A DNA stretch of 34,687 nt from Endomicrobiia bacterium (GTDB lineage: Bacteria > Elusimicrobiota > Endomicrobiia > DTEH01): positions 1 to 34,687 of the forward strand of contig JANXCA010000011.1 in assembly GCA_025060535.1 (NCBI GenBank), in the 5' to 3' direction. Numbering within the stretch: position 1 is the first letter of the stretch; every line of letters starts with the position of its first letter. Made by a program: the position numbers and the translations under genes. This document shows, one piece after another, positions 12,361 through 17,142 of this stretch. The notes under the pieces were generated by a model, which was not told the origin of the DNA, made no database searches, and saw only the letters and a program-made list of their open reading frames with translations.

Positions 12361-12367
12361 AAGGGTG
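12361..12367 (+). promoter_or_regulatory. Ribosome binding site deciding the start of the coiled-coil gene
   Basis: AAGGGTG lies 6 nt before the ATG at 12374. The GTG at 12365, in the same frame, is part of this SD and so is unlikely to be the start codon. Confidence 0.6.
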
Positions 12368-12373
12368 AATTTA

Positions 12374-12886
12374 ATGTTCTTTAAGAAATTTTTTAAAGTT
12401 TCATTATATTTTTTAGTTGGCATAATCTTAATTAACATTTTATATTTATTAATCCAAGAAGTTTATTATCTGCCATTTACTATTGAAATAATAAAACTTA
12501 AAAAATGGAAAAATAAATATGAGACATTCATAAAAGAAGAGCAAAAAAGAGTAAATGCTGCTGTGTTAGAATTAGAGAATTTAAATAAAAAGATAAAAAA
12601 TTATTCCAAAAGAATAAGTTTAGGAGAATATCATTTGATTAATAAATATAATAGTATGGTAAATGAATATTATTATCTAGCAAAAAATTATGAAACTTTA
12701 TTTGATAATCATAAAAAAAATTTGATGTTGTTTGAACAAAACTCTAAAAAACTACAACGACTTATAAACGATTATAGTAAAAGAAGATTTCTTTTGTTTA
12801 TTCCTTTTAAATTAAAATATGAATTTAAAAAAGGAGAAGTTTCTTATACTATAACAAAATCTAATAATTATGAAAATAAGAGGTAA
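12374..12886 (+). CDS. Membrane-anchored coiled-coil protein, unknown function
   Basis: Not recognised as a known family. The protein of 170 residues has one strong N-terminal transmembrane helix (about residues 9-29, VSLYFLVGIILINILYLLI). A long helical, lysine- and glutamate-rich region follows (about 45-140) with heptad-like spacing, for example VLELENLNKKIKNYSKRI, and then a short basic tail. The form is that of a single-pass membrane protein with a coiled coil, like LemA-type or septum-associated proteins, but I see no LemA signature. The start chosen is the ATG with an SD 6 nt upstream; a GTG 9 nt earlier is also in frame. The stop overlaps leuD by 17 nt, so the two are probably translated from one transcript. 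Any functional link to leucine synthesis is doubtful. Confidence 0.65.
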   Translation: MFFKKFFKVSLYFLVGIILINILYLLIQEVYYLPFTIEIIKLKKWKNKYETFIKEEQKRVNAAVLELENLNKKIKNYSKRISLGEYHLINKYNSMVNEYYYLAKNYETLFDNHKKNLMLFEQNSKKLQRLINDYSKRRFLLFIPFKLKYEFKKGEVSYTITKSNNYENKR

Positions 12887-13379
12887 AGTTTATAAGTGTC
12901 CTGATAATATAGATACAGATGTGATAATACCAGCTAAGTATTTAAATACTTCGGATGAAAAATACCTAGCGCAGCATTGCTTAGAACCTCTTGTTGAACA
13001 GGTTGGTAGAAAACTTACTGAAGAAAACATAATAGTAGCTGGAAAAAATTTTGGATGTGGTTCTTCTAGAGAGCATGCTCCTTTAGCTATAAAAGCAGCA
13101 GGAATAAGATGTGTGATTGCTGAAAGTTTTGCGAGGATATTTTTTAGAAATGGTATAAACATTGGGCTTCCTTTGGTTGAGTTAAAGGATGCTTCTAAGT
13201 TATTCGATGATAACGATGAGATAGAAATAGATTTATCAAATGGGATAGTTAAAAATTTATCTAAAAATCAACAATACCAATTTCTTCCTTTTCCTCAATT
13301 TTTACAGAATATAATAACTGCAGGTGGTTTAGTTGAGTTTTTAAGAAAACAATTAGTTAATGAAAAAGCTTCTAGTTAA
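12870..13379 (+). CDS. leuD: 3-isopropylmalate dehydratase small subunit
   Basis: The swivelling small subunit of isopropylmalate isomerase, partner of LeuC. It begins GKVYKCPDNIDTDVIIPAKY, and the substrate-binding NFGCGSSREHAPLAIKAAGI is at residues 60-79, followed by AESFARIFFRNGINIGLPL. The length of 169 fits the stand-alone archaeal-type LeuD that pairs with the short LeuC. It overlaps the coiled-coil gene by 17 nt and the SpoVG-like gene by 20 nt, so it is inside a different transcription unit from leuA-leuC. leuB is not in the window. The homologous small subunit of homoaconitase is the main alternative; the company of leuA and leuC favours LeuD. Confidence 0.93.
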   Translation: MKIRGKVYKCPDNIDTDVIIPAKYLNTSDEKYLAQHCLEPLVEQVGRKLTEENIIVAGKNFGCGSSREHAPLAIKAAGIRCVIAESFARIFFRNGINIGLPLVELKDASKLFDDNDEIEIDLSNGIVKNLSKNQQYQFLPFPQFLQNIITAGGLVEFLRKQLVNEKASS

Positions 13380-13983
13380 GGTTATTTTCTTAGCTATCCT
13401 TATTTTATTTTTTAATTTCTTTTGTAGTTTAGAAGAAATCAATCCTATTTTTATAAGTTCTTTTGAAAAAGTAAGAGAGAATGAATACAATATAATTTTA
13501 AGTAATGTTATATTAATAAGGGAGATAAAATTAAATAAAATAAAAATAGGTAAAAAGGAAATTACAGAGTTGGAACTGCCGAGCTATAAATCTTCAACTG
13601 GTAGAGAGTATCCACAAATCAAAATTCTTTCAGATAAATTATATCAGCAAATATTAAAAACATTAGTTGAAGAGAAAATAGAAAATATAGTTGGTGATGT
13701 TGGTTATCCAGATTTCAAGATAAATAAATTTATTTCTAATCATAATAAGAATTCTAAAATTAAAATAAATGCTTCTGTTGTTTTTGGTGATTCTGTTGAG
13801 GTGGAATGTAAAATAATGGAAGACACTTCTAACAATATTATAGTATTATGGCCTTCTCAAAAAATAAATAAAACTAATAAATGGATTAAACTAATAGAAT
13901 TCATTTCACCTACTTATCAAAAATTTATAGAGAAACAACTTATACATAGATATAAAGTATACAAGTTGGAAAAAGGTATATAG
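13360..13983 (+). CDS. Exported protein with two tandem SpoVG-like domains
   Basis: Residues 4-22 form a hydrophobic signal or anchor with two lysines before it, ending FFCS. Two similar halves follow. Residues 31-106 contain a beta-rich part, then LELPSYKSSTGREYPQIKI and an amphipathic helix. Residues 117-200 contain INASVVFGDSVEVECKIM, VLWPSQKINKTNKWIKLIEF and a final helix. Each half follows the SpoVG order: strand pair, a short bulge with P-S-x-K or equivalent, then 'G/K x x-hydrophobic' and a helix like IQDAVLNEY. Known SpoVG proteins are single-domain, cytoplasmic and nucleic-acid binding; export is odd. No ATG follows M1 before the middle of the protein, and the hydrophobic start is in frame, so it is probably real. 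The Cys at 22 is not in a standard lipobox. The start overlaps leuD by 20 nt. Confidence 0.65.
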   Translation: MKKLLVKVIFLAILILFFNFFCSLEEINPIFISSFEKVRENEYNIILSNVILIREIKLNKIKIGKKEITELELPSYKSSTGREYPQIKILSDKLYQQILKTLVEEKIENIVGDVGYPDFKINKFISNHNKNSKIKINASVVFGDSVEVECKIMEDTSNNIIVLWPSQKINKTNKWIKLIEFISPTYQKFIEKQLIHRYKVYKLEKGI

Positions 13984-14028: not shown

Positions 14029-17000
14029 ATGGAAAAAATATTTTTTGATAATAAACTCTTAATAGGTGTGTCTGATTATATTATTTCTTATTTTGACTCC
14101 GATAAGGATTCAAATTTAGTAGTGTTAATGGATGATTTTATTGATATTTCATATTTTAAAGAGAATTTTTTAGAGTATAAAGAATTAGTTTTGAAATATA
14201 GGATTTTTAATTTTAAAAAAGATTTTAAAACTTTTTTATTATCTAAAGATAAAAATAATAGTTTAGATTATGAAAGTATAATTGATTTAGCAAACTTTTA
14301 TAAAACAATAAATGAAAATAAAAAGATATGCTTTATTACACAAAATTCTCTTTTGAATTATGAGTTACCAGAAGATTTTGAACCAATACTTATGGAAAAG
14401 GCAAAAAAAATAGAATTAGATGATTTATTAGAAAAACTTATTACATACGGTTATAGGCGAGTAGAATATGTGGAAATGGTGGGAGAGTTTGCAGTTAGAG
14501 GTAATATTATAGATATTTGGGGAAATAGTATTGCATATAAAGAAGGAAGTTGTAATTTTTTAAAACCATTAAGAATACTAATAGATGATGAGAATAAAAT
14601 AGAAAGTATCAGGTTATTTAATCCTTCTTCCCAAAGGAGTACATTGCTTGAGGATTTTTTGAGAGTTGATATTTATCCTGTAGATTTACAAAAAATTCCA
14701 AAAGGGATAAAGTTAATTGATATTTTAGATGAAAAAAAATATGAATTTGTGTTTTTTTCTTTAGAAGCAGATAGTTATTTAGAAGGATATTATCCTAACA
14801 AAAGATACTATGGCAACCTTGAACTTTTTGAAAAAGATATTAAAAATTTTATTTTAGAAAAATATAAAATTCTTATAGGATATCAAAATGAATACCAACT
14901 AAAAAATATAAAAAACATAGTTGGTGAATATGATAATATAGAACTAGTAAATACTTCCTTATCTTGTGGGTTTTTTAATAAAATTAAAAAATTATTATTT
15001 ATTACTTATGATGAGATTTTTTCTAAATTTGAAATACATACTTTAACTAAAACACCTAAGATATATGAAAGTATAAGGTTAGAGAACATATGGGAAATAC
15101 AGCCAGAAGATTATGTTGTTCATTTTGAATACGGAATAGCTAAATTTTTAGGAACGAAAAGACTTACAATAAGAGGTATAACTAAGGAATTTTTAGTTTT
15201 ACAATTTCGTGATAATGCTATTTTATATCTTTCTGTTTCAGATATAAATCAAATAGAGAAATATATTTCTTTAACAAATAAAGCACCAAATTTGTCCTCT
15301 TTAAGTAAAGAAAGTTGGGAAAAAATAAAACTAAGAATAAAAGAATCACTGAAAGAATTCATTATTCAGTTATATTCTCTTTATTCTGAAAGAAAAAAAC
15401 TTAAAGGTTATCAATATAAATCTGACAAACAACTTGAAGAAATGTTTGCTTCTACATTTGAATATGAAGAGACAGAGGATCAACTTAAAGCTATAGAAGA
15501 TGTATATAGAGATATGGAGAGTGAATATCCTATGGATAGAATAATAGTAGGAGATGTTGGTTTTGGGAAAACAGAGGTAGCTTTAAGAGCCACATTTAAA
15601 GCAGTAATTAATAAAAAACAAGTAATAGTCTTATGTCCAACTACTGTTTTGGCACATCAGCACTTTGTTACATTTTCAAAACGGCTTGAGCCATTTGGTA
15701 TTAAAGTTGCTTTAGTATCTCGTTTGAAATCTAAAAAAGAGATAAAGGAAATTTTTGAAAAGTTGAAAAATGGAGAAGTTGATGTAGTAATAGGTACTCA
15801 TATTTTGTTAAGTGACGAGATAGATTTTTTTGACTTGGGACTTATAATAATAGATGAAGAGCATAAGTTTGGTGTTAAGCAAAAAGAAAAAATTAGGTTA
15901 AAGTATAAAACATATGAAAGATTTGCAGGAGGTTTTATCCCAGATGTATTATATCTTACAGCTACACCTATCCCACGCACATTAGCTTTTGGTTTAGAAG
16001 GGATAAAAGATATTTCTATTATAGAAATTCCACCTCAAGGTCGTCAACCTATAGAGACTTTTGTTTTGCCTTATAGTAAAGATACTATAATTTATGCCAT
16101 CACAAAAGAACTTCAAAGAGACGGTCAAGTATACTATATTTTTAATGATATTGAAAAAATTATATACAAAGTAGGAGATATAAGTAAGTATTTCCCTAAT
16201 GTAAAAATAGAATTTATTCATAGTAAATTACCACCTAAAAGAATTGAAGATATTATGATAAAATTTTTAAATAAAGAAATACAAATTTTAGTTTCAACTA
16301 CAATTATTGAAGCTGGTTTAGATATTCCAAATGTGAATACTATTATAATAGAAGAAGCTCACAAATTTGGTTTGGCTCAACTTTATCAACTTAGAGGTCG
16401 TGTGGGAAGAAGAGACAAAAAAGCATATTGTTATTTTCTCTACTCTAAAGAAAACTTAACTTTGGATTCTAAAAGACGTCTTTCAGCTCTTATGGAGTTT
16501 ACTTCTTTAGGAAGCGGGTATTATTTAGCCTTGAGAGATTTAGAAATAAGAGGTGCTGGTGAAATTCTTGGTACTAAACAACATGGTTTTGTAAATGAGG
16601 TCGGGTTGAATATGTATTCAAAAATTATTAAACAGTTATTATATGAGATAACAACAAAAAAAGAGTATAAAGAATTTAATCCAGTTATTGATCTTATGGT
16701 AGAGGCCTATATTCCAGAAGATTATATAAAAGATGTAGAAACTAGAACAGTTTTTTATAGAAAATTGCTTTCGGTTTCTAGTTATGAAGAAATAAAAAAT
16801 ATTAAAGAAGAAATGTATGATAGATTCGGAGAGATTAAAGATATTAATAATAAAAAAATTTTAGAAAACCTTCTATACTTGTGTTATTTTAAACTGTTTA
16901 TGAAAAAATATAAAATTGAACGTATATATGATGAAGATGTAGGTGAAAATAAAAAAATTTTTTTAGTGTTTAAAGAAAAAAAAGACTTTTGGAAATTTAA

Positions 17001-17142
17001 GGAATACTTTAATGACTCTTTTATTACAGTTAATGAAAAAGAATTCTATATAGAGTTTAAAAAACAAAATTTTTCACTTTCTTCTATTTTAAATAGGTTT
17101 TTAGAAATAGAAAAATCTCTAACAGGTAAGATGAACACATAG
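14029..17142 (+). CDS. mfd: Transcription-repair coupling factor Mfd
   Basis: Removes RNA polymerase stalled at DNA lesions and recruits UvrA. The domain order is complete. A UvrB-like module fills about residues 1-330, with GEFAVRGNIIDIWG near 150. The CarD-like RNA-polymerase-interacting domain (about 360-430) starts YVVHFEYGIAKFLGTKR. The RecG-like translocase follows, with Walker A GDVGFGKTE near 508, IIDEEHKFGVKQK near 606, LTATPIPRTL near 643 and QLRGRVGRRD near 787. A TRCF C-terminal domain lies at about 860-1000. At 1037 residues it is slightly shorter than E. coli Mfd (1148). It lies 45 nt after the SpoVG-like gene; TATAAC at 14018-14023 sits 5 nt before the ATG, so a leaderless transcript is possible but no -35 supports it. 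The 3' end overlaps the convergent Mth938 gene by 24 nt. Confidence 0.96.
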   Translation: MEKIFFDNKLLIGVSDYIISYFDSDKDSNLVVLMDDFIDISYFKENFLEYKELVLKYRIFNFKKDFKTFLLSKDKNNSLDYESIIDLANFYKTINENKKICFITQNSLLNYELPEDFEPILMEKAKKIELDDLLEKLITYGYRRVEYVEMVGEFAVRGNIIDIWGNSIAYKEGSCNFLKPLRILIDDENKIESIRLFNPSSQRSTLLEDFLRVDIYPVDLQKIPKGIKLIDILDEKKYEFVFFSLEADSYLEGYYPNKRYYGNLELFEKDIKNFILEKYKILIGYQNEYQLKNIKNIVGEYDNIELVNTSLSCGFFNKIKKLLFITYDEIFSKFEIHTLTKTPKIYESIRLENIWEIQPEDYVVHFEYGIAKFLGTKRLTIRGITKEFLVLQFRDNAILYLSVSDINQIEKYISLTNKAPNLSSLSKESWEKIKLRIKESLKEFIIQLYSLYSERKKLKGYQYKSDKQLEEMFASTFEYEETEDQLKAIEDVYRDMESEYPMDRIIVGDVGFGKTEVALRATFKAVINKKQVIVLCPTTVLAHQHFVTFSKRLEPFGIKVALVSRLKSKKEIKEIFEKLKNGEVDVVIGTHILLSDEIDFFDLGLIIIDEEHKFGVKQKEKIRLKYKTYERFAGGFIPDVLYLTATPIPRTLAFGLEGIKDISIIEIPPQGRQPIETFVLPYSKDTIIYAITKELQRDGQVYYIFNDIEKIIYKVGDISKYFPNVKIEFIHSKLPPKRIEDIMIKFLNKEIQILVSTTIIEAGLDIPNVNTIIIEEAHKFGLAQLYQLRGRVGRRDKKAYCYFLYSKENLTLDSKRRLSALMEFTSLGSGYYLALRDLEIRGAGEILGTKQHGFVNEVGLNMYSKIIKQLLYEITTKKEYKEFNPVIDLMVEAYIPEDYIKDVETRTVFYRKLLSVSSYEEIKNIKEEMYDRFGEIKDINNKKILENLLYLCYFKLFMKKYKIERIYDEDVGENKKIFLVFKEKKDFWKFKEYFNDSFITVNEKEFYIEFKKQNFSLSSILNRFLEIEKSLTGKMNT

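Follow-up and report, generated by a model that had tools for sequence, protein, structure and literature searches.

A tandem SpoVG-fold protein with a predicted export signal is widespread in the Elusimicrobiota

The DNA analysed here (the window, a stretch of 34,687 nucleotides from an Endomicrobiia bacterium, contig JANXCA010000011.1 of assembly GCA_025060535.1) encodes a protein that consists of two SpoVG-fold domains in one chain. This architecture is firm. SpoVG itself is a widely conserved regulator of the bacterial cytoplasm, a single-domain protein that binds nucleic acid. The two domains, together with an export-type start, set the protein of the window apart from SpoVG, with export being predicted. 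The double protein, with its export-type start, occurs widely among the Elusimicrobiota. Searches of the open-access literature turned up no exported or two-domain SpoVG, in agreement with the initial annotation, which had considered such a form undescribed. The best-supported mechanism, to which a probability of roughly 0.4 is given, is that of an exported envelope protein that mimics the SpoVG dimer within one molecule and whose ligand outside the cytoplasm would be a polyanion, possibly nucleic acid.

The tandem-SpoVG gene (P0001; 13360..13983, + strand) is an open reading frame for 207 amino acids with an ATG start, and homologues of it were found. Its first 20 bases are shared with the end of leuD (12870-13379), and mfd (14029-17142) begins 45 bases after its stop; the overlap with leuD and the position ahead of mfd had been reported before and agree with the reading frames. 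This setting is specific to the genus and gives little indication of function. The genome assembly amounts to approximately 1.9 Mb in 235 contigs. Between an RluD-like gene and leuD, the + strand also encodes a protein of 173 amino acids (12365-12886) that looks exported and coiled-coil-like and is strongly basic; it has no counterpart in the other loci compared.

The initial annotation had divided the protein into two halves of SpoVG pattern, residues 31-106 and 117-200 (13450..13677 and 13708..13959, both + strand), and structure prediction bears this out for both. The AlphaFold model of the full-length protein, made from an input alignment of four sequences (the window protein and related loci), has a pLDDT of 86.3 and a pTM of 0.77, and contains two repeats with the same order of strands and helix. 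When this model was compared with the PDB using Foldseek, the sole matches at a probability of 0.99 were the SpoVG structures 2i9z and 2ia9, with TM-scores of 0.63-0.67 by target. The first half, modelled alone, reached a pLDDT of 87.4. Its top eight PDB matches were all SpoVG chains, with a probability of 0.98-1.00 and a TM-score by query of 0.55-0.70; the top eleven included every one of the ten SpoVG chains listed. As the Foldseek E-values are all above 0.001, it is the ranking, the probabilities and the sequence evidence that carry the argument for the fold.

By both Pfam and hhalign, the N-terminal halves are more diverged from SpoVG than the C-terminal halves. In the window protein, the SpoVG family profile PF04026 matches residues 125-199 of the C-half at 20.1 bits (E-value 7e-4), which is below the curated cut-off of 29.6, and it does not match the N-half. 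With the halves of the relatives taken separately, most C-halves score above this cut-off. A single homologous N-half does so (G058, 31.8 bits), seven more are sub-threshold, and 9/22 N-halves searched alone give a match, the best at 8e-8. Since the homologues’ C-halves and some N-halves match too, the PF04026 signal is not due to chance. In hhalign comparisons, the C-half aligned strongly with canonical SpoVG at 1.5e-10, as had been proposed from the sequence; the two halves aligned with each other at 1.3e-5, and the N-half aligned weakly with canonical SpoVG at 2.8e-4. A sequence search with the N-half profile produced no SpoVG match, and a sequence-only search of the PDB with the window protein alone gave nothing meaningful. 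The likeness to the characterized SpoVG family (B. subtilis, S. aureus, L. monocytogenes and B. burgdorferi) resides in the fold of each half, in the above-cut-off C-half profile of most relatives and in the R-K doublet of some lineages; the presence of two domains per chain is a point of difference.

Approximately 49 of the 60 relatives sampled carry a tandem-SpoVG homologue, by a hand count in which a few copies are broken or cut at contig ends. Stand-alone SpoVG occurs in 20/60; both forms are present in 16 genomes, the double form only in 33 and the stand-alone form only in 4, with the absences being of lower weight because the assemblies are incomplete. Genomes with the tandem protein are thus often without a stand-alone SpoVG, a further difference from the known family. 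The genome of the window has both forms, its stand-alone SpoVG being located at G000:C99:18748-18990. Across the phylum, families f12, f14, f15 and f23 also gave full-length matches, and f16 and f19 gave divergent ones. The one scan that reached outside the phylum had a single match there by record title, on a 4.7-kb contig labelled Caldiserica (L001) that may be misbinned. This contig has a single open reading frame (L001:2917-4089) with a signal-peptide-like start and four SpoVG-fold domains, equivalent to two tandem units in series. Co-occurrence with the competence channel ComEC was rejected as a test, as ComEC is nearly universal and losses track genome reduction.

In a tree of 73 domains, a branch with support of 96/95 separates the N-halves from the C-halves, which group with canonical SpoVG. 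This split, which is all that was taken from the tree because the alignment is short, points to one old duplication. Two tandem-SpoVG genes follow one another in G065. In genus g5, with genomes of approximately 1.1-1.3 Mb, there are gene copies broken by internal stops (G033:C10, G055:C13 and G170:C32; L058, L057), and the gene is absent from most of the smallest genomes of this genus. Family f21 (L107, L111, L113 and L114) has a second short SpoVG-type protein, lacking an export signal, beside canonical SpoVG. No exported single-domain intermediate was seen among the extra SpoVG proteins of f21 that were read in frame (6/10 were out of frame and excluded), as these are short and have no hydrophobic N-terminus.

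In the AlphaFold model of the window protein, residues 2-22 (13363..13425, + strand) form a hydrophobic helix that may be either a signal peptide or a membrane anchor. A strongly hydrophobic, signal-peptide-like stretch is common to 54/57 homologues across the phylum, and 56/57 have a signal-peptidase-I-type cleavage motif just before the first strand, according to simple sequence rules rather than a trained predictor, with a loose motif rule and several starts chosen by rule. The apparent signal peptide noted initially is retained for the window protein as a hydrophobic helix, though one without a clean cleavage motif. The protein may for this reason stay anchored by its N-terminal helix. The missing motif, and the cytoplasmic location of the characterized SpoVG proteins, would also suit a regulator that remains in the cytoplasm, tethered to the membrane by a hydrophobic N-terminus that is not cleaved and faces inward, and that still binds chromosomal DNA or RNA. 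This is very unlikely, as the cleavage motif of nearly all homologues would be needless for such an anchor.

DNA binding by S. aureus SpoVG depends on each of the residues K50 and R51 (PMC3688583), and the crystal structure of B. subtilis SpoVG is a dimer with positively charged grooves (PMC4959528). The mature part of the tandem homologues is strongly basic, with a median pI of 9.6 and a net charge of +11; control proteins of exported type encoded in the same loci have a median pI of 7.1. The net charge per residue is above the 90th percentile of the controls in 54/57 homologues. Among neighbour proteins overall, 38% have a pI of at least 9, and the basicity is partly background, because many of these genomes are lysine-rich.

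The DNA-contact doublet gives a divided picture. At the aligned place, 53/58 N-halves have a tyrosine, so that the doublet of the known family is lost from this half. Both positions are basic in 17/57 C-halves, and at least one member has an R/K-K doublet in its C-half in 10/16 lineages. The window protein has the doublet of SpoVG in neither half: the Y76 region takes its place in the N-half and Q167-K168 (13858..13863, + strand; function assigned from PMC3688583) in the C-half. The other four of the five sampled members of its family have R-K at this position. Most f3 C-halves, and all four from f16, have likewise lost the doublet. Y76, Y84, C150 and W164 are strongly conserved in the tandem family and differ from canonical SpoVG; Cys150 (13807..13809, + strand) is the sole cysteine of the mature part and is conserved in 49/58 homologues.

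These losses and the residues particular to the tandem family argue for a structural or protein-binding envelope scaffold, in which the exported SpoVG fold would have been repurposed for outer-membrane or peptidoglycan-associated partners and nucleic-acid binding would have been lost. The outer-membrane barrels encoded beside the gene in several lineages are consistent with this possibility, which is nearly as likely as polyanion binding. The high positive charge in all sampled lineages and the R-K doublet retained in many of them speak against it.

The gene neighbourhood differs among lineages, and the linkage therefore changes by lineage. Immediately upstream of the tandem-SpoVG gene, f2, f4, f15, f23 and part of f12 have a gene for a PorV/PorP-like outer-membrane barrel. 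Several of the barrel loci encode further barrels with HHH_3 domains, and secreted proteins with LTD, FlgD_ig or CHU_C domains. PorV/PorP barrels belong to type IX secretion, and those with helix-hairpin-helix domains adjoin the tandem-SpoVG gene in f4, f12, f15, f23 and related loci. They are not homologous to the tandem-SpoVG protein, and its possible membership in a type IX-like system is suggested only by the neighbourhood. Searches of the protein against Pfam and NCBIfam returned no type IX component or C-terminal sorting domain; it is only the neighbours that match PorV/PorP and CHU_C/FlgD_ig. Open reading frames of the SprA_N family (the type IX secretion translocon family), mostly of approximately 1700-1850 amino acids, are present in 19/60 relatives (G030:C30, G016:C2, G010:C144 and others). 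In the genome of the window, G000:C161 (L126:3201-7978) encodes in series a secreted PLD-like protein, an HHH_3 barrel and a further barrel-like protein, without a SpoVG gene; this set resembles loci that hold the tandem-SpoVG gene in other genomes. A multi-pass membrane protein adjoins the gene in several lineages (L078, L079, L099 and L001:4293-4670), with no Pfam match in the two copies scanned. A reading of the f16 neighbours as a pilM-pilQ operon was rejected, the genes being an M48-type protease, EF-P and a HAD hydrolase (by reading) and a subtilase (by Pfam).

Two GGDEF proteins (diguanylate cyclases) are encoded directly after the gene, usually overlapping or abutting it, in the majority of the loci sampled from f3, f7, f9, f10 and f11. 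YfiR is a small exported periplasmic regulator of a membrane diguanylate cyclase, and the tandem-SpoVG protein of these families resembles it as a small exported-type protein encoded just before a cyclase gene. The protein could sense the state of the envelope and control the two downstream membrane cyclases as a periplasmic input to c-di-GMP. This is unlikely. The fold is different from that of YfiR, the N-terminal membrane parts of the cyclases show no sizeable periplasmic domain by eye, and constant linkage to a cyclase with such a domain was not found, the association being confined to some families. The cyclase pair is not in this position in f1, f2, f4, f12 and others; the pair in the genome of the window sits elsewhere (G000:C153), and G017 has kept the tandem-SpoVG gene in the absence of the pair.

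Polyanion binding by an intramolecular SpoVG pair is the reading favoured by the fold and profile matches of both halves, the branch that sets the N-halves apart, the signal-peptide-like starts, the basicity, the R/K-K doublet of 10/16 lineages, the barrel neighbours and the dimeric state of B. subtilis SpoVG. The loss of the DNA-contact doublet from the N-halves, the low proportion of C-halves with two basic positions (17/57), the partly background basicity and the varying neighbours count against it. The two linked folds would reproduce within a single polypeptide the arrangement that canonical SpoVG reaches by dimerizing. The second domain would do most of the binding, with the first completing the pair, and the strongly basic mature protein would most likely act outside the cytoplasm by binding a polyanion, possibly nucleic acid. 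Its probable location is periplasmic or at the cell surface, beside outer-membrane barrels, because the gene lies beside barrel genes in several lineages, some of them with helix-hairpin-helix domains. It is rather unlikely that the protein is an extracytoplasmic nucleic-acid binder acting with these HHH barrels, in an undescribed surface system of the Elusimicrobiota that would capture or organize DNA outside the cell.

That a two-domain form with an export signal is widespread in one phylum, and often occurs where the cytoplasmic SpoVG is missing, suggests a move of the SpoVG fold to another compartment. The tandem-SpoVG protein is a candidate component of the envelope in a phylum that has been little studied. 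As a putative SpoVG dimer that occurs naturally in a single chain, it would also be useful for structural work.
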